Shown here: positions 403 through 13,476 of the stretch, one piece after another
How positions within the stretch are numbered: the stretch's first letter is position 1
How the letters are laid out: every line of letters begins with the position of its first letter
NCBI GenBank assembly: GCA_017414845.1
Contig: JAFQJY010000089.1
Location: 1 to 16,863 of the forward strand
DNA length: 16,863 nucleotides
Reading direction: 5' to 3'
Origin: Alphaproteobacteria bacterium
GTDB taxonomy: Bacteria; Pseudomonadota; Alphaproteobacteria; RF32; UBA3637
The notes under the pieces: model-generated
The model's input: only the letters and a program-made list of their open reading frames with translations
What the model was told of the DNA's origin: nothing
Database searches by the model: none
Program-made: the position numbers and the translations under genes

Positions 403-1699
403 AAACTCTCCTTGTTTTTCCCATTGTAAAGCGTTCAAAGGGAAAGGTCAATTTTTAATTGCCTGCATTGGACTTTTTCTTTTAGCCTCTTGTAGCGGTC
501 AGGCTGTTATTCAAGAAAAAAAAGAACCGATTTCCTATGTCGGCGCTGTTTTACCGGAAATCAAGTCCAGTGGTGAAAAAATCTTAAAAAACGGTGGGAA
601 TGCCGTTGATGCCGTTGCAGGTATGCTCATGACACAAGCCGTTCATCTGCCGTCTCGGGCCGGTCTTGGCGCCGGTGGTGTTTGTCAGGTGTTTTCTCCG
701 TCGGAAAAGAAAGTAAAAACACTCAATTTCCTTCCTGCCCCCATGGGCGAAGGAATCGGCGTTCCTGCATTAGCCAGAGGTATTTTTTCACTTCAAAACA
801 ACTATGGTATTTATCGGTGGGCAGATATCTTATCTGATGCCCAAAAATCAGCACAAAACGGCATAACCGTTTCTGAACTGCTTGCCGAAGACACCCGAAA
901 AATTGCTTTTTTAGAGTTGGAAGAAGGCGCTGTTTTGAAACAGGAAAAACTGGCACAAACCCTCAAAAAAATGATGACCTCCGGAAGTGGTATTTTGTAC
1001 AAAGGGGATTATGCCGATAAGATAACAAAAAACAGAAATGTTGACACAACGACCCTCTCCGGTTTCAAAGCGAAATGGAGTGATTCTATTGAAGTATCGT
1101 CAAAAATGGGAAACACTTATTTTCCCAATCTTGCTGTTTTCGGATCCAATGCTTATACCATTTGGGAAGATTTATCTTCTGACAGCGAAACAAAACGACA
1201 AAGGGCTTTTACGGAACTTAAAAACATAGATGAGAAAACCGTTTATTTAGGAGAAAGCGTTTACGGTGCCTCTGTAATGGCAACGGACACCGATGGTTTA
1301 ACGGTTATTTGTTCCGTTACAAACGGTAACCTTTTCGGGACGGGAAAAGAAGTCGGATCTCTCGGTTTTTATCTTGCAGAACCGTTGGATGAAACAAAGA
1401 TGAGCGCAACGCTTGTCAATTTAATACAAACTGACACAAAAAAAGAAGAACCTGTTTCTATGCTTTCTGCTGTCGGAGATTATGTAGTCAGAGACGCCGT
1501 TCTTCTTAGCCGTGAAAATATCCTGAACGGGAAAACGGTGCGTCAAAGTATCGCTTCTGCGCAGAAACAACTCCCTGATGACAGAAGACAGGTTTTAAAT
1601 CAATCTCCTGTTCTTTCCTGTTTTGGCGGAACAATTTCTTATGCCGGAAACTGCCGACATAATGATATTGTCACCCCGTTTAAAAAGGAGGTCAAATGA
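377..1699 (+). CDS. Gamma-glutamyltransferase-like lipoprotein, probable pseudoenzyme
   Basis: 440 residues, against about 580 for typical GGT. A hydrophobic stretch ending in LLASC (Cys39) looks like a lipobox, so this is probably a lipoprotein. GGT landmarks remain: GGNAVDAV (73-80), GLGAGG (96-101), a GVPALARG segment (128-135), KGDYADKI (209-216) and the small-subunit-like segment TDTDGLTVICSVTNG followed by FGTG (303-323). The catalytic Thr that begins the small subunit in active GGTs (TTHYS in E. coli) aligns here with Gly/Ala (YGASVM, 296-301). The substrate Arg in the REMAP-type motif is Leu (NFLPAP, 117-122), and the GSPGG motif is not seen. Self-cleavage and catalysis are therefore unlikely. 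The start is uncertain: 377 is the most 3' in-frame ATG/GTG/TTG region before the lipobox (380 also possible), but it gives a long n-region overlapping the protease gene. The stop overlaps the next start by 4 nt (ATGA). Confidence 0.75.
   Translation: MMNKKRIRINSPCFSHCKAFKGKGQFLIACIGLFLLASCSGQAVIQEKKEPISYVGAVLPEIKSSGEKILKNGGNAVDAVAGMLMTQAVHLPSRAGLGAGGVCQVFSPSEKKVKTLNFLPAPMGEGIGVPALARGIFSLQNNYGIYRWADILSDAQKSAQNGITVSELLAEDTRKIAFLELEEGAVLKQEKLAQTLKKMMTSGSGILYKGDYADKITKNRNVDTTTLSGFKAKWSDSIEVSSKMGNTYFPNLAVFGSNAYTIWEDLSSDSETKRQRAFTELKNIDEKTVYLGESVYGASVMATDTDGLTVICSVTNGNLFGTGKEVGSLGFYLAEPLDETKMSATLVNLIQTDTKKEEPVSMLSAVGDYVVRDAVLLSRENILNGKTVRQSIASAQKQLPDDRRQVLNQSPVLSCFGGTISYAGNCRHNDIVTPFKKEVK
423..451 (-). 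promoter_or_regulatory. Probable sigma70-type promoter for the M48 protease gene
   Basis: Read on the minus strand, a TTGACC -35 box (446-451) and a TACAAT -10 box (423-428) are separated by exactly 17 bases. Transcription would start near 416, giving a leader of about 14 nt that contains the AGGAG site. The promoter lies inside the first codons assigned to the divergent GGT-like gene. Confidence 0.6.
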
Positions 1700-2199
1700 A
1701 ATCCTTTTTGAAAAAAAACGCCGTTATAGAAACAATTGCAGGTCTCGTTGTTCTGATTTGTTTTGTTTCCCTTTTCAGTTTTGTTTATAGCCGTAAACAA
1801 ATCAAACCTGAGGCTACAAACTTTCAACTTTATGCCCATTTCAACAAAGTTGACGGCATTAAAGAAGGCGCTGTTGTCCAACTGAGCGGTATTCCTGTCG
1901 GCTATGTAACTGACATGGTTCTTGATCCGTTTTATGGCGTTATTTTAACCCTTTCCTTTAATAAACCGATGGAACTTCCGACAGATACGGCTGCCATTAT
2001 TGAAACAAACGGCCTTGTCGGCGCCAAGTTTATTGAACTGGTCCCCGGTGGAGAAGAAGATGTTCTTAAACACGGCAGTACAATCGGATATACACAAGAC
2101 GTTCTTTTAATTGATGATTTACTCAATCATGTTTTAGAGTTTATGCGTAAGCGCAAAGGAGAACTTCCCAACAGAATTGCAGAAGGAGTAGAAAAATGA
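1696..2199 (+). CDS. MlaD/MCE-domain protein (first of a tandem pair)
   Basis: 167 residues. One N-terminal transmembrane helix (about 13-32) anchors the protein in the inner membrane, and one MCE domain follows at about 42-120. The domain is recognised by its start (AHFNKVDGIKEGAVVQLSGI), PVGYV, the LPTDTAAIIETNGLVG segment and KFIELVPGG. MlaD proteins form hexameric rings that pass phospholipid between an MlaFEB-type ABC transporter and the outer membrane; no ABC genes are in this window. The C-terminal tail (about 130-167) is short and charged and lacks the long helical needle of PqiB or YebT. The strong AGGAGGT site at 1686-1692 supports the start. The start overlaps the GGT-like stop by 4 nt, implying translational coupling, and the same holds at its own 3' end. 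Confidence 0.88.
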   Translation: MKSFLKKNAVIETIAGLVVLICFVSLFSFVYSRKQIKPEATNFQLYAHFNKVDGIKEGAVVQLSGIPVGYVTDMVLDPFYGVILTLSFNKPMELPTDTAAIIETNGLVGAKFIELVPGGEEDVLKHGSTIGYTQDVLLIDDLLNHVLEFMRKRKGELPNRIAEGVEK

Positions 2200-2651
2200 A
2201 AAAAAATCCGGTAGAAGGTGTTCTTGGCTTTTTAGTTTTAATTTTTTGCTGTTTGTTTTTGTACACAGCATTTGACCGAATAGATTTAGGAAAAGCAGAC
2301 GGTTATTTATTACACGCCTCATTTAATAAAATCGGTGGATTGGAAATGGGCGCAGACGTTCGTATCAACGGCATTAAAGTCGGTTCGGTCACTCGTATTC
2401 ACCTCAACCCGCAAACATTTATGGCAGAGGTTGAAATGACGATTAAAGAGGGTATTTATCTGCCCGAAGACTCAACGATTGCCGTTGCTGATTCGGGGAT
2501 GCTCGGCACAAAGTATATTCGTGTAGACCCGGGGAAACAAAAAAGAACGATTGAACATAACGGTGTTGTTAAAAACACAAAAGATTACCGTTCGTTAGAA
2601 GAAAATGTCAGTGAATTTATTTTCCTGTCAACGAAAGAGGATAAAAAGTGA
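2196..2651 (+). CDS. mlaD: MlaD/MCE-domain protein (second of a tandem pair)
   Basis: 151 residues with an N-terminal membrane helix (about 8-26) and one MCE domain (about 38-117). The domain shows HASFNKIGGLEMGADVRINGI, KVGSV, LPEDSTIAVADSGMLG and KYIRVDPG. This is closer to textbook MlaD (anterograde/retrograde phospholipid trafficking across the periplasm) than its upstream neighbour. It is a diverged paralogue of that neighbour: same architecture and length class with moderate identity. The tail after the MCE domain is about 30 residues and contains LEENVSEFIF, which resembles the short helix that closes the MlaD pore. An AAGGAG site lies just upstream, within the end of the previous gene. 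The start overlaps the previous stop as ATGA, and the end overlaps the next gene's GTG start. Confidence 0.9.
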   Translation: MKKNPVEGVLGFLVLIFCCLFLYTAFDRIDLGKADGYLLHASFNKIGGLEMGADVRINGIKVGSVTRIHLNPQTFMAEVEMTIKEGIYLPEDSTIAVADSGMLGTKYIRVDPGKQKRTIEHNGVVKNTKDYRSLEENVSEFIFLSTKEDKK

Positions 2652-3079
2652 TAAAAAAAATCGGATTATGTTTAAGCGGACTTTTATTATCGGCTCCGGC
2701 ATTTGCCTCTGACATTCCGATGAACACGGCGCTTCTCAGAGGTCTTGATAAAGTCACCGGACGAATACAAACCTTTTCTGTCCCGGTCGGAGAAACAACC
2801 CGTTTCGGGAAAACATTTGTTACGGTAGAAAAATGCCTGAAAAAGCCACCGGAAGAATCGCCGGAAGACAGCGTTTTTCTGCATATCTTTGAAAAAACAC
2901 TTCAAGGCGAAAATATATCTCTGTTTAACGGATGGATGTTTTCTTCTAATCCGGCGCTTTCCTGTATGGAACATCCTGTTTATGACATTTGGATTATTGA
3001 ATGTTTGGACGAAGAAGCAAAACCAAATCTTCCGACCGAACCCGTTCCTTTCAAAGCAATGGAAGATGAAGATTTCTAA
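2648..3079 (+). CDS. DUF2155 domain-containing periplasmic protein
   Basis: 143 residues, starting at a GTG that overlaps the preceding TGA (GTGA). Residues 1-20 form a signal peptide with an AFA cleavage site. The rest matches the alphaproteobacterial DUF2155 family: ALLRGLDKVTGR near the mature N-terminus, the VTVEKC segment, then GWMFSSNPAL and the EHPVYDIWIIEC signature. Cys63, Cys106 and Cys119 are present, of which Cys63 and Cys119 sit at conserved-looking positions and could form a disulfide. The family has no established enzymatic function that I know of. Its position as the last gene of an MCE operon suggests a periplasmic role in outer-membrane lipid homeostasis, which is inference. 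The acidic C-terminal tail is short. The stop overlaps the stop of the convergent histidine kinase gene by 4 nt. Confidence 0.88.
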   Translation: MIKKIGLCLSGLLLSAPAFASDIPMNTALLRGLDKVTGRIQTFSVPVGETTRFGKTFVTVEKCLKKPPEESPEDSVFLHIFEKTLQGENISLFNGWMFSSNPALSCMEHPVYDIWIIECLDEEAKPNLPTEPVPFKAMEDEDF

Positions 3080-4455
3080 ATCGGGAAACGTAAAAGAACA
3101 CGAAGTCCGTTCATGGGACTGTCGGAAAGTATTATTTCTCCACCGTGAGAAAGGACAATATCTTTTGTAATGGCAAGTCCTAAACCGACACCGCCTGTTT
3201 TTGTATTTCTGGATTTATCCAAACGATAAAACGCCTTAAAAACTTCTGCTCTTTTATCTTCGGGAATCCCGGGACCGTCATCATCTATGGTGATTTCAAG
3301 AAAGTTTTCACGAACCCCCATATTGACATACGCATTTGTCGCATAACGATGCGCATTTGTCAGAATATTCGTAATTGCCCGACAAAAATCGTTCGGACGT
3401 AACACCATTTGCTGAGTTTGTTCTATATGAAGGTCTATGGAATGTCCGCTACGAACCAACTTTTCTACTAAATCCGTCAACAGTAAAGATACCTCTGTTA
3501 AAGAAGACGGCTCTTTTCCCTCACCTCGTGCAAAAGCCAAATAGCCCTCAAGCATTCGTTCCATTTCAGCAATATCTTCAAGCAAATCTTTTATGCCGTC
3601 ATCTTCGCCCATCATGGAAAGTTGTAGTTTCATCCGTGTCAAAGGCGTTCTTAAATCATGAGAAACGCCCGAAAGCATTCCGGTTCGTTCGCCAAGGTAT
3701 TTTTGGATACGTTCCTGCATTTTAAGGAAAGACATACCGGCTTGTTTTACTTCTGTTGCTCCTTCTGGTTTAAATTTAGCCGTACTGCGTCCCGTTCCGA
3801 AATCTTCTGCCGTTTTAGCCAAACGCACAACCGAACGCACCTGATTTTTCATAAACAAAAAGGCTATCCAGAAAAGAAGAACGGACGCCCCTATCATCCA
3901 AATCACAAACGCATAAGTCGTTGAACTGAAAAATCTCTTTTTCGGCATAGAAACATTCAATACACCTTGTGGTAATTGAAATGAAACGATAATATAACTT
4001 TTATCCGGTACTTCTGTAATAATGAACGGATACTTTAAATCTTCCAAACTTTTTTGAAGTTTGGAAACCATCATACTGTTCTCTTGTCTCGGATAGGATA
4101 AATCAAGTGAATCTCCTTTTTTATAGGCTATCTTAAACAGAAGAGGACTTTCCATCGCATCTATGGTTTCAGAAGTCTGTTTTGTATCAGGATAAGAATC
4201 TATCATAAAAATAATCGTTTCAATTTCACCGGCAATATCATTGGCTAACCTGCGACTGACAGACGACCAGTGATGATCATAGAAAACAAAAGCCGCCACT
4301 AATTGTAATAACAAGAGTGGAAACAAAACGATTAAAATAAATCGGGGCAATAACGCTTTCGGAAAAATACGGATATGCATCGGATTGATGATATAGGCTA
4401 AAAAATCGCCTATTTCTTTTATTCCGTCGTGCATTTTTTTCCAAAACTTTCTCAT
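3076..4455 (-). CDS. EnvZ-like sensor histidine kinase
   Basis: 459 residues. Two transmembrane helices (about 37-58 and 181-202) flank a periplasmic sensor region of roughly 120 residues. A HAMP domain (about 203-255) follows. The HisKA domain has the phospho-acceptor His266 in GVSHDLRTPLTRM. The HATPase domain has an N-box (ITNILTNAHRYA, 361-372), a G1 box (DDDGPGIP, 391-398), an F-box-like FKAFYRLD and a G2 box (GGVGLGLAI). All residues needed for autophosphorylation appear present. Layout and motifs match the EnvZ/OmpR class, which senses envelope or osmotic conditions in the inner membrane. The start lies 3 nt beyond the regulator's stop, so the two are cotranscribed; the Shine-Dalgarno site is weak (GGA within the end of the regulator gene). 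The porin gene elsewhere in the window is a conceivable target, but nothing in the sequence proves it. Confidence 0.93.
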   Translation of the reverse strand: MRKFWKKMHDGIKEIGDFLAYIINPMHIRIFPKALLPRFILIVLFPLLLLQLVAAFVFYDHHWSSVSRRLANDIAGEIETIIFMIDSYPDTKQTSETIDAMESPLLFKIAYKKGDSLDLSYPRQENSMMVSKLQKSLEDLKYPFIITEVPDKSYIIVSFQLPQGVLNVSMPKKRFFSSTTYAFVIWMIGASVLLFWIAFLFMKNQVRSVVRLAKTAEDFGTGRSTAKFKPEGATEVKQAGMSFLKMQERIQKYLGERTGMLSGVSHDLRTPLTRMKLQLSMMGEDDGIKDLLEDIAEMERMLEGYLAFARGEGKEPSSLTEVSLLLTDLVEKLVRSGHSIDLHIEQTQQMVLRPNDFCRAITNILTNAHRYATNAYVNMGVRENFLEITIDDDGPGIPEDKRAEVFKAFYRLDKSRNTKTGGVGLGLAITKDIVLSHGGEIILSDSPMNGLRVLLRFPI

Positions 4456-4458
4456 TTT

Positions 4459-5136
4459 TTAATCCGGTAATAAAATATATCCTTTACCTCTGACCGTCTG
4501 TAAATAACGGGGGTTTTTAACGTCTTCTTCTATTTTTTTACGAAGTCTGTTCACTTGAACATCTACCGTTCGTTCGTTTGCCGTTTTTGTCCTTGTTGCT
4601 AATTCTTCACGAGAAACTTCTTTTCCCGTTTTTTCGGACAAAATCGCAAGCAACTCTTTTTCTACTGTTGTCAACGCAATAAACTCATCACCACAAGAAA
4701 GTTCGGAACGCTGTCTGTCATACATAAATTTTCCAAACCTTAAAATTGTTTCTTTTTGAGGTACAGTCTGTATTCTGCGTAAAATATTATTCAATCGCAA
4801 CAACAACTCTTTCGGTTCAAACGGTTTTGTTAAATAGTCATCCACGCCCGTTTCCAACCCCTGTATTCTGTCTTGAATATCCCCCATGGCCGTCAGCATT
4901 AAAATCGGGACAAAACTTCCGGAAGAACGTAATTTTTCAGCAAAACTGAACCCACTCTCCCCGGGCATCATCACATCCAAAATCAGTGCGTCAAAAATAA
5001 ACGTCTGCATCATTTCTCGGGCATCAGCGGGACAGGAAGCCTCAGAAACAAGAAAGTCATTAGATGTCAAATACTTATTTAACAACTGACGTAATCTCGT
5101 ATCATCATCTATAATCAAAATGTGCTTTTTATCCAT
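4459..5136 (-). CDS. OmpR-family response regulator
   Basis: 225 residues. The N-terminal receiver domain (about 4-117) has the acidic pocket Asp10-Asp12, the phospho-acceptor Asp54 in LILDVMMPG, Thr82 and Lys104 (TKPF). A winged-helix DNA-binding domain (about 130-223) ends with RTVDVQVNRLRKKIEED and VRGKGYILLPD, diagnostic of the OmpR/PhoB family. It is the phosphorylation partner of the kinase encoded 3 nt downstream and acts in the cytoplasm as a transcription factor. The start at 5136 is preceded by a GGAAG site and overlaps the end of the TPR gene by 8 nt, so this regulator is translated from the TPR transcript. No separate promoter is evident, because the upstream sequence is TPR coding. 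Confidence 0.94.
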   Translation of the reverse strand: MDKKHILIIDDDTRLRQLLNKYLTSNDFLVSEASCPADAREMMQTFIFDALILDVMMPGESGFSFAEKLRSSGSFVPILMLTAMGDIQDRIQGLETGVDDYLTKPFEPKELLLRLNNILRRIQTVPQKETILRFGKFMYDRQRSELSCGDEFIALTTVEKELLAILSEKTGKEVSREELATRTKTANERTVDVQVNRLRKKIEEDVKNPRYLQTVRGKGYILLPD

Positions 5137-6901
5137 TTTTTTCTTCCGACTTTTTATCAGACAACCCTTTTTCCAGTTTTTCTTTCAAACTTTGAAGTAA
5201 TTTTTCGGAACTTCCTTTTTTTAAAATCATAGCGTGATTCCACTGAAAACGAGCCTCTCTTTTCCGACCTAAACGCCAATACAAATCCCCTAAATGCGCA
5301 TTGATTTCGGCATTACCGGCTTCTAACATAACAGCCTTTTCCAAAACAGGAAGAGCCTCCTGATAGCGTTCTAACTGAAAATAAGCCCATCCGAGACTAT
5401 CCAGTATATTACCGTCCTCCGGTATTTTTGCAGAGGCTTTTTTGATAAGTTCCAAAGCCTCTTCCTGTCTTTGATTTGTTTCAAGCCACATATAGCCGAC
5501 ATAATTGAGATAAACAGGATTATCCGGTACCAACTGTGCAGCAATTGTCAGAGACTTTATCGCATTTTCATTTTGTCCCAATTTCTCATAACAAACCCCT
5601 TTTGCGAAATGAAGAGGAGCCGCCTCTACCTGAATAGGTTCACCTAATGTCGTAAGCGATCTATCATACATTTCAAGGGCTTTTTCATAACGTTCCATAT
5701 CCCGATAAGCATCACCTAATGTCATATAAAAAATCGGATATTTAGCCCCTTTGTTCATTTCTTTTTCTAAAACGTCTATGGCTTTCTGAGGCTTTTCTTG
5801 TGTCACTAAATTCATCGCATGTCGTACTTTTTTAGAATAATAAAGCGAATCATTGACGCTTGTTTTTCCATAAACAGCGTTCGCCCCGTCATAAAGACGC
5901 ATACTTTCAAGAACTTCTGCCTCAAAAAAAGTTATAACGGCATTTTGCGGTGTCAGATAACTTGCCAACCTTGTTAAAAAAAGTGCTGTATCCGAATCGC
6001 CGGCATGTTGTAAAAAACCGGCCATATCAAACAAGGATAGAGCGATTCCCTGTTCCGTACGCACGGGGAAAACCGTTTTCGGTGCTTTTTCCAAAAGTTC
6101 CCTTGCCACGAAACTTTCTGATTGAACCTCGGTATAAAGTTTTTCTAATTCGGTTGGAATTTTTAACTTCGGATTTCTATCATAAAACCCTTTAATATAC
6201 GAAAGAACCTGCGCATTCTTAGCATCGGTCTGCTTTAACACTTTTTCAAACAATTGACTTGTTTTTTGCACATCACCTGAGCCATAGGCCATAAGCGCCT
6301 GATGAAACAAAGCCGTCGTCGGCAAATCTTTGACGATACCGACTTCTTTATACGCTTCTTCCGTCTTTTTTTCTCCCGCCAAAAGCCATGCACGGCAAAG
6401 GGCTTTCAGATAATACAGATATCCCTCGGAAGGAACTTTTTCAAGGTAAGAAAGGGCCTCTTTTTTATCTCCGTTTTTAACACCGTCTACAAATAAAGTC
6501 AGTGCGGGAAAGGTGATATCTTTTCCCAAAGACAACGCCTGATATGCATACGGAATACTTTTTTCAATCTGTCCGTCCATCACATAAAGCGCATACAGGG
6601 AATTGATTAAATCTTCATGATTCCTGTCACTTTCAAGCGCAGTTCTGTGATAAGACGCCGCCTTTTTAAAATCAGCCTGAGATTTGGCAAAAGAACCGGC
6701 AAGATAGGCTCCGAATTCTGCCGTTTCCGGTGCAGGACGAAAAACACGTTCACTCAAAAAACTCGCTATCAACTCCTGTGCGACAGCCTCCAATCCCAAA
6801 GCAACGGGAGACGCACCGGCAGAAAAGCACCACCCTAACGACAGTCCTAAAACAGCCGTTTTTAAAAATAAATTTCTTTTTTTAATTTTAGACTCGCTCA
6901 T
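5129..6901 (-). CDS. Tetratricopeptide-repeat protein, exported
   Basis: 590 residues. The N-terminus (basic, then LFLKTAVLGLSLGWCFSAGA) is a signal peptide with likely cleavage after residue 30, placing the protein in the periplasm or on the outer membrane. The remainder is a helical TPR solenoid. Repeats are weak in the first two thirds (about 65-360) and clear in the last third (about 390-555): TLGDAYRDMERYEKALEMYDRSL, a DNPVYLNYVGYMWLE unit, DSLGWAYFQLERYQEALPVLEKA and HLGDLYWRLGRKREARFQW. The last block is characteristic of a conserved proteobacterial TPR family (PA4667-like) of unclear function. The C-terminal tail is highly charged and Lys-rich. It is the first gene of an operon with the OmpR/EnvZ-type pair, so it may be a periplasmic accessory of that signalling system or of envelope assembly (inference). 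No good Shine-Dalgarno site precedes the start. Confidence 0.88.
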   Translation of the reverse strand: MSESKIKKRNLFLKTAVLGLSLGWCFSAGASPVALGLEAVAQELIASFLSERVFRPAPETAEFGAYLAGSFAKSQADFKKAASYHRTALESDRNHEDLINSLYALYVMDGQIEKSIPYAYQALSLGKDITFPALTLFVDGVKNGDKKEALSYLEKVPSEGYLYYLKALCRAWLLAGEKKTEEAYKEVGIVKDLPTTALFHQALMAYGSGDVQKTSQLFEKVLKQTDAKNAQVLSYIKGFYDRNPKLKIPTELEKLYTEVQSESFVARELLEKAPKTVFPVRTEQGIALSLFDMAGFLQHAGDSDTALFLTRLASYLTPQNAVITFFEAEVLESMRLYDGANAVYGKTSVNDSLYYSKKVRHAMNLVTQEKPQKAIDVLEKEMNKGAKYPIFYMTLGDAYRDMERYEKALEMYDRSLTTLGEPIQVEAAPLHFAKGVCYEKLGQNENAIKSLTIAAQLVPDNPVYLNYVGYMWLETNQRQEEALELIKKASAKIPEDGNILDSLGWAYFQLERYQEALPVLEKAVMLEAGNAEINAHLGDLYWRLGRKREARFQWNHAMILKKGSSEKLLQSLKEKLEKGLSDKKSEEKNG

Positions 6902-7755: not shown

Positions 7756-7784
7756 TTGACTTTCTGTCTAGTTTTTGCTATTTT
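7756..7784 (+). promoter_or_regulatory. Sigma70-type promoter for the secreted metallopeptidase gene
   Basis: TTGACT (7756-7761), a 17-base spacer and TATTTT (7779-7784). Transcription would start near 7791, just before the AAGGAG at 7792-7797, which lies 7 nt from the ATG at 7805. This rules against the upstream in-frame TTG at 7775. An imperfect 7-bp inverted repeat (7734-7740 with 7753-7759) touches the -35 box and could be an operator or a weak UDG terminator. Confidence 0.65.
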
Positions 7785-7804
7785 GGACAAAAAGGAGAAA
7801 GATT

Positions 7805-9193
7805 ATGTGGAACAACCTTGTTAAAAGAGCATTACTGACCAGTGTTTGTCTGACCTCATTTATGTGGCCGTATGAGGCTGAATCAGCGCCTCGTTCTTAT
7901 GATAACCGCCGAACGGCACGACAAACACAGCGGAGTCGTCGTCAATCCGGTCGTACACGAAACACACCCAGGACACCGGCTAAGCCGAGAAGAGCCGAAG
8001 TTCGTCCGGAACAAAAACTGGCGCATTTTAAACGGCAGATTTCAAGAACGCCGAATTCTAAAATGACACCGGAACAGAAACGACTGTACATTGAATGTTT
8101 GGATATGCTTGCCTCTTGCCCGAGAGGGTTATGGATTATCCAAAATGCCCCTTCTGATTTAAAGTTTGAAGTCGGTGGCGCCAACATGGGACGATATTCC
8201 AACAAAACACTTTATATTTCGGCAGATTATTTCAGACAAATGCAAACTCAAACTCCGGAAAACAAACAACTTATCAAGTATGCCACTGTTGCAACTATTG
8301 CTCATGAAATGACGCATGCCATTCAAATGAAAGAGGGAATTAATGAAACGCCCGGATGGGAACTGGAAGAAAGTTTTAGGCTTCTCAAACTCAACGAACT
8401 CCATGCCTATTTAGAGGAGATGACGGTTTCTCACCAACTGAATCCTAAGACAGATCACTTTTACGGACTGGTTGTGGAAGAAAAGAAAAAAGAGGGCTCT
8501 ACGCAAGAACAAGCCGAACGATATGCCCGTACCCAGTTTGTCAAAAAGTACTGGGAAGCGTCACCATCAACTCCTCTTCAGGTAAATGGTATCAACATTT
8601 ATTTAGGTCAAAACACCTTTAGGTGTTGGGACGGTATGTACAATAATCTATCTTATTGGAACGCTATGAACGGCTATCGCCCCGTTCCCAAACGAGGAAT
8701 TCGCCCCATTGTTCAAAAATTTGTTGATCTTATGGGTATTGATTTAAAACCTGAGTTTTTTACAGATTCACAACATTCTCCTTTCCGAATCAGTGAACGT
8801 CGTTTTATCACCTACATGGATGGGATCACTCACGCCGAAATGGAACAATTGACAATCGGAACACTTAGTAAAGCTTATATCAATGGTCAAATCACAAATG
8901 TCCGCATCATGTTTCCGAAAGAAAACCGTGTTACCAACGGAACACATCGTGTAGATTTAGAAGGCGACGGATATGCCACCTATACCGTCAGAAACGGGAA
9001 GATGAATGGTCCTTATCGTCAATATGATGCACACGGACAACAGGTTCTTGAAATCCCGATGCGAGATAATAAAGCTCAAGGAGTTGGCTGGCAAAGAAGA
9101 GACGGAAAAGTTCATAAAGTTGAATTCAGAAACGGATCATCAGAAGATTATCTTCGCGGAAGGATTCGCTATTCAGATAAAATCCGAGACTAA
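7805..9193 (+). CDS. Secreted HExxH zinc metallopeptidase-like protein with MORN-like C-terminus
   Basis: 462 residues. Residues 1-28 form a signal peptide. A strongly basic linker follows, with 13 Arg between residues 30 and 67. The central domain contains IAHEMTHAIQ (165-174): His167 and His171 are zinc ligands and Glu168 the catalytic base. NELHAYLEE (197-205) offers Glu198 as a gluzincin-type third ligand. This resembles the putative metallopeptidase family I would call DUF6782, an assignment made from memory and not certain. After about residue 385 come repeated short beta units (DGYATYTVRNGKMNGPYRQY, then GQQVLEIPMRDNKAQGVGW and GKVHKVEFRNG), which look like MORN/YwqK-type repeats. The product is probably periplasmic or secreted; the substrate is unknown. 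A consensus-like promoter, AAGGAG and a downstream terminator make this a single-gene unit. Confidence 0.8.
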   Translation: MWNNLVKRALLTSVCLTSFMWPYEAESAPRSYDNRRTARQTQRSRRQSGRTRNTPRTPAKPRRAEVRPEQKLAHFKRQISRTPNSKMTPEQKRLYIECLDMLASCPRGLWIIQNAPSDLKFEVGGANMGRYSNKTLYISADYFRQMQTQTPENKQLIKYATVATIAHEMTHAIQMKEGINETPGWELEESFRLLKLNELHAYLEEMTVSHQLNPKTDHFYGLVVEEKKKEGSTQEQAERYARTQFVKKYWEASPSTPLQVNGINIYLGQNTFRCWDGMYNNLSYWNAMNGYRPVPKRGIRPIVQKFVDLMGIDLKPEFFTDSQHSPFRISERRFITYMDGITHAEMEQLTIGTLSKAYINGQITNVRIMFPKENRVTNGTHRVDLEGDGYATYTVRNGKMNGPYRQYDAHGQQVLEIPMRDNKAQGVGWQRRDGKVHKVEFRNGSSEDYLRGRIRYSDKIRD

Positions 9194-9198
9194 ATGAA

Positions 9199-9236
9199 AG
9201 CCCTCTGCTTTTGTCAGAGGGCTATTTTATTTTTAG
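9199..9236. terminator. Intrinsic terminator, shared by two convergent genes
   Basis: A perfect 9-bp stem (9199-9207 AGCCCTCTG with 9215-9223) has a 7-nt loop and is followed on the plus strand by ATTTTATTTTT. It ends the metallopeptidase transcript. It also lies just beyond the stop of the convergent porin gene, and its minus-strand T tract (TTTCATTT) is weaker but usable. Confidence 0.85.
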
Positions 9237-10558
9237 AATATCAGGTTGGCGCGTATGCTGGCGACGGTTGCCGTTTTTTCATCTCTGTCGCCTGCCGGAT
9301 GATAATAAAACTGAATATCCGGTGTAATGGTCAAGAAATTTGTAAATCCCCACGCCCAATAAGCCTCTATAATTTTTTCATCACCTCTGGTCCCTTCGCC
9401 GTTGATGTTTTGATTGAGTTTATTCCACACAAGCGCAACACCGATTTGATCCAAAGCATTTCTGCCCAACGGATTATTGTACACAGCGCCGGCGACATAA
9501 GATTGTTTAATACTTTCTCCTTTTGAGACACCGTTGATACGACCGAACAAGCCGACTTTACCGAAATTTTGCATCATATTGAGACTCCAACCGTTACTGT
9601 CTGTCGGCTGTTCGTTTGTTGACGGTTGATGATAAACAAGTACGGAATATTCACCTGTTCCCCACCCCTCTATTGTCGGCATATAACTGACGGAAGCAAA
9701 ACTTGTATAGCGATGTTTTCCGAATGTGCTTGTTTCAATTTTATCCCCGTCTATATTATGAGCGTCTTGCATACCCATAGCAATTGTCCACTCGCTGTTT
9801 GGAGCAATCTGAACAAATCCGCCGAGACTTGCCGTCGGATAACTGTCTGTTGCATTTTGAGATAAGGCTTCGTTGATAAAGTTCGTCTGCTGGTTAGAAT
9901 CATAAGCTGTTCCGTCAAAATTAAAAATCGGGAATTGACCGACCGTAAAAGAAATCGGGCTGAGTTTCCCAGGTAATGTATGCGTATAACTGAGTTGATA
10001 AAAATAGTTATCTTTTGCCGTATAATCGTTTTGAGGCGTAATGACACCGATTCTATCTCCTAAAACATTACCGTCAATTCCCCAATAGCGAACGGCAGAA
10101 TATAAAAATTGAAGAGAACCTGAACCGATTTTTGAGTCATACATTTCCCAGTTGATACTCGGCGTATAAATTGTCTGCCATGAAGTCCCTTTTCCGGAAG
10201 GCGAACCACGTTGCGCCAAAAGAGAAACATCCATGCTGTATTCAAGCCCCATTTTATTTTGCAGATTTGTTTTAAAATCAGCATATCCTTTTTCCATTTT
10301 TTCCACAGCCGTTTGCGGATTTTTCTTTGCGTGTTTTTGATGATGTTGTTGTGCCTGTTTTACCCAACCTGCCCTTTTTTTAGGAGCTTTTTCTACGGTT
10401 GGCATTTCTGCGATAACAACTTCCTCTACAACTTCCTCTTCCACAACGAGAACGGGGGCTGATTGTGTATTGTTTTTTTCATCTGTTGTAACGGCATCAG
10501 CAGAAAAACACATTAAAGCCACGCCTGAAAACAGAAACATTTTAAAAACTGATTTCAT
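9233..10558 (-). CDS. OprB-type carbohydrate-selective porin
   Basis: 441 residues. Residues 1-22 form a signal peptide (cleavage after SADA). Residues 23-100 are an unusual spacer: an acidic Val/Glu run (LVVEEEVVEEVV), a Pro/Lys part, and a His/Lys/Gln segment (QQHHQKHAKK, 70-79) with coiled-coil character. From about 103 the alternating pattern and Gly/aromatic-rich strands form a beta-barrel. Segments such as FTVGQFPIFNF, ASLGGFVQIAPNS and YWAWGFTNFLTITPDIQFYYHP match the OprB/COG3659 family, which mediates sugar and other small-solute uptake across the outer membrane. The protein ends in RANLIF, with the C-terminal Phe recognised by BAM. AGGAGG at 10567-10572, 8 nt from the ATG, and a promoter upstream mark it as separately expressed from mutY. 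Confidence 0.88.
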   Translation of the reverse strand: MKSVFKMFLFSGVALMCFSADAVTTDEKNNTQSAPVLVVEEEVVEEVVIAEMPTVEKAPKKRAGWVKQAQQHHQKHAKKNPQTAVEKMEKGYADFKTNLQNKMGLEYSMDVSLLAQRGSPSGKGTSWQTIYTPSINWEMYDSKIGSGSLQFLYSAVRYWGIDGNVLGDRIGVITPQNDYTAKDNYFYQLSYTHTLPGKLSPISFTVGQFPIFNFDGTAYDSNQQTNFINEALSQNATDSYPTASLGGFVQIAPNSEWTIAMGMQDAHNIDGDKIETSTFGKHRYTSFASVSYMPTIEGWGTGEYSVLVYHQPSTNEQPTDSNGWSLNMMQNFGKVGLFGRINGVSKGESIKQSYVAGAVYNNPLGRNALDQIGVALVWNKLNQNINGEGTRGDEKIIEAYWAWGFTNFLTITPDIQFYYHPAGDRDEKTATVASIRANLIF

Positions 10559-10640: not shown

Positions 10641-11651
10641 TTATGCAGGTATCTCATCTAACTTCTTTAAAACCTTTTTCATCAATGTAGAAAAGGCATA
10701 ATTTTCCCGTTCTGCCACACTGACAAAAACACCACCCTTTAAAAAATCAGCCGGATACGATTCAGTGCACTCAAAAAAAGAAAGCGTTAAATCAAAATGC
10801 GTAAAAACATGCCGAACTTGAACCGAATATTTTTTCCATACGCTTTCAAAAGGCATAACTTCTTCTTCTGCCCAAGGTATTTCCCAAAGACCTGACAAAA
10901 GCCCTTTACCCTGTCGTTTACGAATAAAAATTTCTCCTTTTTTATTTTTAAGAATAAATACAGCACCCTGTTTCTTCTTTTTTTCCAATTTTTTTAAAAG
11001 AGGAATTTTATCCTGCAATCCCTTTTTTCTTGCGACACAATTTTCACGCCACGGACAAATATCACACAAAGGCGACGAAGGACGACAAACCGTTGCACCT
11101 AAATCCATAATGGCAGAAGCGTAATCCGCACCATATTCTTTGGGAGTCAGAGAGCAGGCTCTCGGATAGATTTTATCCCTATCCACCTCAGTTTCTATTC
11201 CATCATAACGAGCCATAACCCGAATGACATTTCCGTCCACAACCGTTTCCGGCAGGTTAAATGCAAAAGCGCATAAACTGGAAGCCGTATAGGGACCTAT
11301 TCCGGAAAGTTTAAGCAATTCCTCCCGTTTATTCGGGAAAACACCTCCGTAATTTTCCATAACTTCTTTGGCACATTGGTGCATTTTTTTAGCCCGTGTG
11401 TAATATCCCATACCCTGCCACATTTTAAGAACATCATCCAAAGATGCCTCTGCCAAACTTTGAAGTGTCGGGAAACGTTTCATCCAACGTTCAAAATAAG
11501 CATACACTGTCTGAACCGTCGTCTGTTGGAGCATAATTTCGGAAACCCAAACGGCATAAGCGTCAGGATGTGCACCACCTTTAACACGCCACGGTAAATC
11601 CCGTCCGTTTTTGGCATACCATTCTAAAAGAAGACGTGCTTCTTTTTTCAT
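10641..11651 (-). CDS. mutY: A/G-specific adenine DNA glycosylase
   Basis: 336 residues, a usual MutY length. It removes adenine mispaired with 8-oxoguanine. The HhH-GPD domain shows the catalytic Glu38 in WVSEIMLQQTTV, the helix-hairpin-helix LSGIGPYTASS (115-125) and the catalytic Asp139 in ETVVDGNV. Four Cys (189, 196, 199, 205) with C-x6-C-x2-C-x5-C spacing bind the 4Fe-4S cluster. The C-terminal NUDIX-like 8-oxoG recognition domain (about 228-336) contains GLLSGLWEIPWA and a VRHVFTHFDL segment. The start overlaps the stop of the AAA+ gene as ATGA, so translation is probably coupled to that gene, an unusual partner for mutY. An 82-base gap separates it from the porin gene. Confidence 0.95.
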   Translation of the reverse strand: MKKEARLLLEWYAKNGRDLPWRVKGGAHPDAYAVWVSEIMLQQTTVQTVYAYFERWMKRFPTLQSLAEASLDDVLKMWQGMGYYTRAKKMHQCAKEVMENYGGVFPNKREELLKLSGIGPYTASSLCAFAFNLPETVVDGNVIRVMARYDGIETEVDRDKIYPRACSLTPKEYGADYASAIMDLGATVCRPSSPLCDICPWRENCVARKKGLQDKIPLLKKLEKKKKQGAVFILKNKKGEIFIRKRQGKGLLSGLWEIPWAEEEVMPFESVWKKYSVQVRHVFTHFDLTLSFFECTESYPADFLKGGVFVSVAERENYAFSTLMKKVLKKLDEIPA

Positions 11652-13378
11652 TTTTTTGCTAAAATCACAGGTTTTTTACCTGCCTTATCCAAAGTTACAA
11701 GGACTTGATAACCGGGGAGGATTTTTTCCTGCATAATCAAAAATGCGAGTGGATTTTCAATCTGATGTTGAAGTAATCGTTTGAGGGCACGCACACCGAA
11801 CGGAGACGAAAAAACTTCGTCAATAAACCACTGTTTAGCGACATTATCCACCATCACTTCATAACCGGCGGCCTTTGCCCTTTTTAAAAGTTTATTGAGG
11901 TGAATTTGAATAACTTTTGCCAAGTGTTCTTCCGTCAACTGATGGAACGTTACCGTATCGTCAATACGGTTTAAAAATTCAGGTCTGAAATACTGCGTCA
12001 ATGCGTCAATACGCTGATAACTCGGCAAATCGGCTGCCACGTTAGACGTCATAATAATAATTGTATTTCTAAAATCAACCGTAACCCCTTTACTGTCAGT
12101 CAAACGCCCTTCATCCAACACTTGTAATAATAATGTCAGAATATCGGGATTGGCTTTTTCAAGTTCGTCAAACAAAACTACTTGGAACGGTTTTAAACGA
12201 ACGCCCTCCGTTAAGATACCACCGAGTTCAAATCCGGGAGTCCCCGGTGGCGGACCGATTAAACGTGTCACGGATGATTTTTCCATATATTCAGACATAT
12301 CCAATCTGAGAAGTGCCGTTTCATCGTTAAACATAAATTCTGCCAAAGACTTTGCCAATTCTGTTTTACCGACACCGGTTGTACCGATAAAGAGGAAAGA
12401 ACCAATCGGACGGTTCGGATCTTGCAATCCAGAACGAGAGCGCCTTAAAGCATTTGCCACAACAACAACGGCAGGATCTTGTCCGATAACACGTTGTTTT
12501 AAATATTCTTCTGCAAGAGCCAGCCTTTTTTTATCTTCCGTATCCACTTTTTCCAAAGGAATACCCGTCCACGACGAAACTGTTTTCATGGCATAATCTA
12601 TGGAAAGTTCGTTTACATCAGGTGCAACAACTCCTTTTCCTTTATCCATTAAAAGCGCACCGGAAGCATCATCTAACAGGTCAATGGCTTTTTCGGGAAA
12701 GAAACGTTGTTTAATATAACGTCCCGTTAAATTGACGGCGACTTTCACAAACTCATCAGAAATAACAACACCATAATGTTTTTCAAAATCTGCCTTTCTG
12801 TTCATAACAATTTGCTCTGTTTCTAAAGCAGACGGTTCTTCCAAAAAAAGCGTTTGGAACTGTTGCATTACAGACGTATCTTTTTCAACGACACCTCTGT
12901 AAGTCAACATCGCCGTTTCCAAAATTACATTGACAGAGCCGTCTAAAAGTTTCAACTTTAAAAATTTAGATGCTTCGGCATTTTCCGGACTGACATCACT
13001 TCTGACAAGCAAACTGGCCTCATTGATATAAAGAATCCATTCGCCTTTATGTTCACAAATTGTTTCAAAAACACTTTTTAAATTTTGCGTATACTCTTCA
13101 TCAGTTTCACTGTTGAGCATAACTTCGGCAATATCAATCCCGACAATTCTTTTTTTCTTTAAAAATTCCGGCGCCGTATCCGAAAGCAGATACGAAGCCA
13201 ACCCCTCTATCAACGCCGTTTTACCGACACCGGCAGAACCGATAACCATCGGATTATTTCTTGTTTTACGAAGCAGTATATGAACCAAACGCCCGATTTC
13301 ATTTTCTCGTCCGACCAAATGGACAAGTTTTCCTTGTGACGCTAATTCCGTATAATCTTTAATATATTTCTCAGCCAT
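11648..13378 (-). CDS. ClpA/ClpB-like double AAA+ ATPase with degenerate first ring and no N-domain
   Basis: 576 residues, against about 750-860 for ClpA/ClpB. Residue 24 already begins the first AAA+ domain, so the Clp N-domain is absent; the ClpB middle coiled coil is also missing. D1 keeps Walker A (GSAGVGKT, 47-54). Its Walker B reads YINE (Asp to Asn119), the ERRFQ arginine-finger motif is MQQFQ (171-175), the sensor-1 segment is altered, and the pore motif KYRG is ETDE (91-94). D2 (about 325-540) is intact for ATP hydrolysis: GTTGVGKT (332-339), VLFDE (401-405), TSN (444-446), NR arginine finger (471) and GVRALKR (528-534). Its pore motif GYVG, however, reads GTPG (379-382). No IGL/IGF ClpP-binding loop is visible between TSN and FRPEFLNR. 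The ATG at 13378 has AGGAG (13385-13389) 6 nt upstream, so the in-frame TTG at 13384 is not the start. Overlaps mutY by 4 nt. Confidence 0.88.
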   Translation of the reverse strand: MAEKYIKDYTELASQGKLVHLVGRENEIGRLVHILLRKTRNNPMVIGSAGVGKTALIEGLASYLLSDTAPEFLKKKRIVGIDIAEVMLNSETDEEYTQNLKSVFETICEHKGEWILYINEASLLVRSDVSPENAEASKFLKLKLLDGSVNVILETAMLTYRGVVEKDTSVMQQFQTLFLEEPSALETEQIVMNRKADFEKHYGVVISDEFVKVAVNLTGRYIKQRFFPEKAIDLLDDASGALLMDKGKGVVAPDVNELSIDYAMKTVSSWTGIPLEKVDTEDKKRLALAEEYLKQRVIGQDPAVVVVANALRRSRSGLQDPNRPIGSFLFIGTTGVGKTELAKSLAEFMFNDETALLRLDMSEYMEKSSVTRLIGPPPGTPGFELGGILTEGVRLKPFQVVLFDELEKANPDILTLLLQVLDEGRLTDSKGVTVDFRNTIIIMTSNVAADLPSYQRIDALTQYFRPEFLNRIDDTVTFHQLTEEHLAKVIQIHLNKLLKRAKAAGYEVMVDNVAKQWFIDEVFSSPFGVRALKRLLQHQIENPLAFLIMQEKILPGYQVLVTLDKAGKKPVILAKK

Positions 13379-13476
13379 AATCAACTCCTGTTATTTCTTT
13401 CAGAATAAGTCTTTTCTCTTAATAAATACTTAAAGAATTATCTGATACACTTCAAGAAAGAAAGGAGTTTATTGCC

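Follow-up and report, generated by a model that had tools for sequence, protein, structure and literature searches.

A double AAA+ HSP100-like family with conserved D2 ATPase residues and no aromatic residue at either pore-1 position

According to our analysis, the 16,863-nucleotide contig JAFQJY010000089.1 (assembly GCA_017414845.1; Alphaproteobacteria, GTDB lineage RF32; UBA3637), referred to here in its whole length as the window, carries a gene for a double AAA+ protein whose lineage appears to represent a novel HSP100 variant, distinct from both ClpA and ClpB. In this lineage the aromatic residue of the pore-1 loop is missing from both AAA+ modules, the first module (D1) is predicted to have lost catalysis, and the second module (D2) retains its ATPase residues. 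A 2022 structural paper calls the pore aromatic invariant in AAA+ unfoldases, and no report of such a family was found among the titles and abstract openings listed for open-licence PubMed Central papers. A bacterial HSP100 clade lacking the Tyr grip in both rings might be specialised in remodelling one conserved partner without threading it (or by gripping its backbone), resembling a Torsin in the form of a double ring with a frozen, ATP-bound D1, a reading to which we give somewhat less than an even chance.

The mechanical call of the open reading frame extends from 11648 to 13384 with a TTG start. Two codons further in, at 13378, stands an ATG with GGAG in front of it; the 576 residues read from this ATG equal the length of the database entry P0001. 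Pfam matches to AAA_2, AAA_lid_9 and ClpB_D2-small delimit two AAA+ modules, as in the double-AAA+ HSP100/Clp proteins. Motifs were read residue by residue in an ungapped alignment with Escherichia coli ClpA (L003) and ClpB (L002). This alignment reproduced the substitutions listed by the initial annotation, which had been made from the sequence alone: the D1 pore motif KYRG is replaced by ETDE and the D2 motif GYVG by G379 T380 P381 G382, the Walker B Asp of D1 is N119, its arginine finger pair RR is Q172 Q173, and its sensor 1, G-A/S-T-T in the references, is L153 E154 T155 A156. In the D1 pore-2 region, for which the ClpA pore-2 numbering given in PMC9663308 was used, ClpA and ClpB have a shorter Gly/Ala-rich loop at the same place. 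The window D2 is intact in Walker A, Walker B, sensor 1 (N446), the arginine finger (R471) and sensor 2 (R530).

The same changes run through the relatives of the window protein. Two protein searches (queries P0001 and P0052, best 120 of about 8000 matches each) gave 139 distinct clusters, which as best matches to two queries are redundant and form 19 groups at 80% identity (P0006 excluded). Their proteins are 490 to 794 residues long, the 490-residue P0006 being a fragment; the sequences are metagenome-derived, and organism labels, available for 10 of the 139, name Alphaproteobacteria nine times and Lactobacillales once. Labels of proteins from metagenome-assembled genomes conflict, some MutY relatives being assigned to Lentisphaeria and one Clp relative to Lactobacillales, and some are probably wrong. 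At D2 position 380 the residue is T in 110 relatives, S in 23, Q in 4, M in 1 and A in 1, with an aromatic in 0/139. Positions 381 and 376 are each P in 136, A in 2 and S in 1, while glycines 379 and 382 are retained in all 139. The family thus carries a near-fixed PPPG(T/S)PG loop at the place of the G(Y/F)(V/I)G of every HSP100 compared. All 139 relatives have F or Y at the neighbouring residue 383; it was considered as a new aromatic and rejected, since ordinary HSP100s have F or Y there as well. The D1 pore position 92 is N in 44, S in 43, T in 42, D in 7 and G in 2, with one gap and no aromatic among 138, and F, Y, W or H occurs elsewhere in the stretch 88-95 in a single relative. The claim that both pore tyrosines had become Thr fits D2, where T or S followed by P is near-fixed, while the D1 position is variable, with T, S, N, D or G.

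The catalytic motifs of the two modules differ in how far they are kept. The D1 Walker B pair DE is found in 0/139 relatives, position 119 being K in 106, N in 14, R in 9, Q in 8, T in 1 and P in 1, and position 120 D in 132 and E in 7; E occurs only in P0001-P0007, the group of the window protein, whose N-E is a milder change than the one usual in the family, which is mostly K-D (in the form Y-x-K-D). The finger pair RR is absent from all 139, with a single R in five. The Walker A lysine of D1, K53, is kept in 138/138 members having a residue there (one gap). In D2, K338, T339, D404, E405, N446, R471 and R530 are each present in 139/139, which extends to the family the earlier statement that all D2 ATPase residues are intact. 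Followed across the clade, T92, T380, N119 and QQ172-173 thus mark a family-wide loss of the aromatics, of DE and of RR, with the replacing residue varying at 92 and 119; after thinning to the 19 groups, an aromatic at 380, DE in the D1 Walker B and RR are each missing from every group. Homologues with canonical pore loops, named by the initial annotation as evidence against its own reading, did not appear: none of the 139 listed relatives has such a loop. Among plasmids, 0 of 2279 matching records reached 60% identity, and phages gave 0 of 164 matching records; a viral-contig scan based on nine sequences aligned over D1 alone likewise found no relative.

Ordinary HSP100 proteins served as controls, 168 in number: 80 bacterial loci of ordinary Clp proteins from other phyla, among the matches listed to the patterns LDMSEYM and QDPNRPIG; 80 viral-contig loci, also ordinary Clp, among the matches listed to the query P0080; and eight named proteins, namely E. 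coli ClpA, the ClpBs of E. coli, Azospirillum, Sphingomonas and Pseudomonas, ClpL, TssH and a Caulobacter AAA protein called ClpK-type. Collected by Clp patterns and so biased to canonical forms, they have the D2 aromatic, the D1 RR and the D2 DE in 168/168 each, the D1 DE in 166/168 (the exceptions being one ND and one DD) and Y or F at the D1 pore in 164/168; a residue other than Y or F at the D1 pore is thus not unique to the family, 4/168 controls showing the same. As an observation in its own right, the 80 viral contigs (L090-L169), several of them 200-370 kb long, code for double-AAA+ Clp proteins of the ordinary kind, whose D2 pore loop has the aromatic in 80/80.

Many lost D1 motifs might be expected of a decaying or erroneous gene, an explanation that we consider exceedingly improbable, given that the same changes recur in 139 clusters, that D2 is more conserved than in the reference proteins, that copies 99% identical to the window protein (P0002-P0005) lie on other contigs, and that linkage to the neighbouring mutY is apparent on further contigs (see below). 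Those copies and the clade-wide changes rule out a sequencing error or a private change, and the 168/168 controls with the D2 aromatic and the D1 RR speak against chance. The coordinated changes, fixed across the clade together with a strongly conserved D2, argue for a remodelled machine rather than decay or error, as had been proposed from the single sequence.

The domain content sets the protein apart from the known classes, and the absences already suspected of the N-domain, the middle domain (M-domain) and the ClpP loop were all borne out. In none of the 139 relatives do more than 15 residues stand ahead of residue 4 (3-8 in 133, 0 or 1 in three, and 12 or 15 in three, with the fragment P0006 counted among the rows with a short N-terminus), so that the N-domain is absent, and the short starts of 133/139 rule out a truncated ClpB. 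The D1-D2 linker leaves no room for a middle domain: it is 28 residues long, close to the 24 of E. coli ClpA, while five ClpBs, including one taken from an unannotated record, have 140-142. The stretch from N446 to R471, which we take to be the location of the ClpP loop in ClpA and ClpC, has 26 residues in 139/139 members compared with 34-54 in 30 references; IGF, IGL, LGF or MGF occurs there in 0/139 members and in 18/30 references. Because this loop is absent, we suggest that the sources mislead in labelling such proteins "ATP-dependent Clp protease ATP-binding subunit". All NCBIfam scores fall far under their cut-offs: 594.8 bits for ClpB (TIGR03346, cut-off 1232.1), 503.7 for ClpA (TIGR02639, 993.15), 439.7 for ClpV/TssH (TIGR03345, 884.95), 440.4 for ClpK (1900) and 415.1 for ClpG (1900). 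The resemblance to ClpB/Hsp104 lies in the tandem AAA+ fold, in the best NCBIfam match and in a D2 that, when structurally aligned, shares 46-49% identity with crystal chains of the ClpB D2, whereas the N-domain, the M-domain and the pore aromatics are missing, D1 is degenerate, and neither of the trees described next groups the family with the five ClpB rows. With ClpA the protein shares the short linker and the D1-D2 order but not the N-domain, the IGL-type ClpP loop, GYVG, KYRG or RR. Domain content, curated score cut-offs and trees thus support the earlier view that the protein is something other than a ClpA or a ClpB.

In the D1 tree as in the D2 tree, each built from 23 family members and 30 references, a branch with 100/100 support sets the family apart, and another 100/100 branch does so for the five ClpB rows. 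The deep branching order is unsettled in both, and the stems are long (0.88 in D2 and, measured on the family side of a midpoint root, 1.09 in D1). The two rings have diverged differently, D1 appearing relaxed while D2, including its pore loop, appears rebuilt and held harder than in the references, because mean identity within the family is 0.53 in D1 and 0.80 in D2 (55 pairs among 11 representatives at 75%), against 0.60 and 0.55 among the references (435 pairs), where the order of D1 and D2 is reversed. Of the sites conserved in the references (at least 85% one residue), the family has lost 33/100 in D1 and 11/98 in D2, the Tyr and Val of GYVG being two of these 11. The remark that the rest of the protein is well kept therefore applies to D2 and not to D1. 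Within D2 the PS-I and pore-2 regions are conserved; within D1 the pore-1 loop is variable and the pore-2 region has several near-fixed positions. Positions of the motifs and genes are collected in Table 1.

Table 1. Features of the Clp-like gene and its neighbour mutY in the window
Feature	Position	Strand	Remark
Double AAA+ HSP100-like gene	11648..13378	-	576 aa; ATG start, GGAG upstream
mutY (A/G-specific adenine glycosylase)	10641..11651	-	start overlaps Clp-like stop by 4 nt (ATGA, 11648-11651)
D1 Walker A GSAGVGKT, residues 47-54, intact	13217..13240	-	alignment to ClpA/ClpB
D1 pore-1 position KYRG to ETDE, residues 91-94 (E91 T92 D93 E94)	13097..13108	-	alignment
D1 Walker B F-I-D-E to Y-I-N-E, residues 117-120 (D to N119, E120 retained)	13019..13030	-	alignment
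D1 pore-2 region, residues 126-142	12953..13003	-	near-fixed family motif, approximately PENxE(P/A)(A/S)KFLKL
D1 sensor-1 region, residues 154-156	12911..12919	-	E154 in 139/139
D1 Arg-finger pair RR to QQ, residues 172-173	12860..12865	-	RR in 0/139 relatives
D2 Walker A GTTGVGKT, residues 332-339	12362..12385	-	K338, T339 in 139/139
D2 pore-1 loop G-P-P-P-G-T-P-G-F, residues 375-383	12230..12256	-	replaces G-A-P-P-G-Y-V-G-F/Y
D2 Walker B VLFDE, residues 401-405 (D404 E405)	12164..12178	-	DE in 139/139
Short N446-R471 stretch, 26 residues, ends in D2 Arg finger R471	11966..12043	-	ClpP-type tripeptide absent
D2 sensor 2 G-V-R, residues 528-530	11789..11797	-	R530 in 139/139

We propose, with a confidence just short of even, that the protein is a ClpP-independent remodeller with D2 as its sole motor, a dead D1 ring and a non-aromatic Thr/Ser-Pro pore loop. 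Six subunits would form a double ring, in which D1 would bind ATP and not hydrolyse it, providing a ring for assembly and recognition, while D2 would be the only motor, operating independently of both ClpP and the DnaK route that uses the M-domain. Since no aromatic grip is present at either pore-1 position, the D2 stroke would shift the partner through a weak or non-aromatic contact made by a stiff, polar, proline-rich loop, and the outcome would be short remodelling pulls or a conformational switch rather than processive, high-force threading. As has been argued for the Torsins, forceful threading would not be expected, because replacement of the pore-1 Tyr by Ala impairs translocation in Clp/Hsp100 proteins, and the constancy of D2 would fit one specific, conserved partner.

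Judging from its sequence, D1 is catalytically incompetent, with Walker B DE and RR each in 0/139. Pex1/Pex6, which belong to a different AAA+ clade, offer a parallel. Their D1, with substituted Walker B and arginine finger, still binds ATP while D2 is the motor, as described in PMC10518020, and by this likeness the D1 ring of our family is read as non-hydrolysing and probably ATP-binding; unlike it, Pex1/Pex6 form a hetero-oligomer whose D2 pore loops retain one aromatic (KFI, MYI). TorsinA, a Clp/HSP100 relative, also lacks an aromatic pore loop according to PMC5425593, but has its arginine finger supplied by LAP1/LULL1, whereas the D2 of our family keeps its own R471 and the window protein is built of two AAA+ modules. 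PMC5415569 was among the further papers drawn on.

The main rival to this proposal is that the protein is still a threader, its Thr/Ser-Pro loops giving a weaker grip on disordered or weakly folded substrates and D2 working as a low-force translocase. We regard this as rather unlikely, although the D2 ATPase residues, PS-I and pore-2 regions are retained, as are the glycines flanking the changed loop residues in all 139 relatives. p97 carries aromatics in its D2 pore. Its D1 pore, according to PMC5559722, has none, and yet unfoldase activity was reconstituted. Threading by the present family is harder to reconcile with the absence of an aromatic at 380 (0/139) and 92 (0/138), set against the D2 aromatic in 168/168 other HSP100s, and with the effect of the Tyr to Ala replacement noted above. 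Alternatively, the grip may have moved, with the D1 pore-2 region (PENxEPAKFLKL) or an acidic tail as the new substrate contact, which we hold to be quite improbable. The near-fixed positions of the D1 pore-2 region would suit it, as would the finding, in PMC9663308, that D1 pore-2 loops catalyse remodelling in ClpA; C-terminal tails of more than 20 residues, with a mean of 29% D+E and 10% P, occur in 81/139 relatives. However, the conserved pore-2 stretch may merely repack the dead ATP site, and the other 58/139 have at most 20 residues past residue 576, the window protein having none. A regulatory subunit entering mixed rings with the canonical ClpB, ClpA or ClpC of the cell, to which it would contribute intact D2 sites and no grip, is improbable in our estimation. 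Its fold and D2 ATPase residues are indeed HSP100-like, and the Torsins offer a precedent in LAP1/LULL1, partners with degenerate AAA+ modules; but D1 is the more diverged part, while nucleotide-bound D1 supports the oligomerisation of ClpA and ClpB according to PMC5540906, and the window has no second Clp gene.

Several points weigh against the remodeller proposal itself. Contacts with the backbone or made by pore-2 and PS-I could still permit threading, since both of these D2 regions are conserved, and F or Y stands at residue 383 in all 139 relatives, as in ordinary HSP100s. E120, retained in the Walker B of the window protein, may allow some hydrolysis in D1. The proposed mechanism rests on sequence, with hexamer formation assumed, the idea of a single partner is based on the constancy of D2 alone, and the 139 relatives are redundant best matches to two queries. 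Finally, the D2 tree came with a warning, the long stem of the family meeting the long-branched row L047.

Upstream of the Clp-like gene, 98 bp away and in opposite orientation, lies a gene of the TIGR00730 family. Annotation of the window proteins with Pfam and NCBIfam identified no second Clp gene within the 16,863 nucleotides, which also contain no tRNA and no Rfam match at the gathering score. Promoter-like sites (11, against 6.7 with standard deviation 2.9 in shuffled sequence) and terminator-like sites (7, against 3.1 with standard deviation 2.0) were not used. On the minus strand, positions 9233-10558 encode an OprB-type porin, for which NCBIfam lists a single match, to the model of the chlamydial porin AaxA (282.6 bits against a cut-off of 600), and 5129-6901 a 590-residue protein with a long TPR array, adjoining a response regulator and an EnvZ-like sensor kinase at 3076-5136. 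On the plus strand are a pair of short MlaD-domain genes that overlap each other, with a DUF2155 gene after them (1696-3079), and a 472-residue protein (7775-9193) with no Pfam match and weak, zinc-peptidase-type NCBIfam matches.

The linkage with mutY appears to recur elsewhere. When the longest contigs of the MutY relatives (best 120) and of the 139 Clp clusters were compared by base count, 16 counts coincided, those of the window and 15 more, whereas counts shifted by 1-50 in either direction gave 0.46 coincidences on average and never more than 3; the two genes thus appear to share a contig in 15 further cases. One of these, P0098/P0197 (3822 bases), was set aside as linkage evidence, being probably a chance coincidence because P0197 matches the window MutY at 65%, whereas for three further relatives with long tails the partners reach 60% each. 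Five of the remaining shared contigs are 4.9-6.7 kb long, and on so short a contig the two genes must lie close together. The coincidences indicate shared contigs, adjacency being read there from contig size only, and the linkage to mutY is a position, not a function.

A natural HSP100 family that keeps its D2 motor intact yet has an aromatic at neither pore-1 position would be one in which the motor is separated from the grip. We think that this family could show whether the aromatic serves remodelling as such or forceful threading alone.
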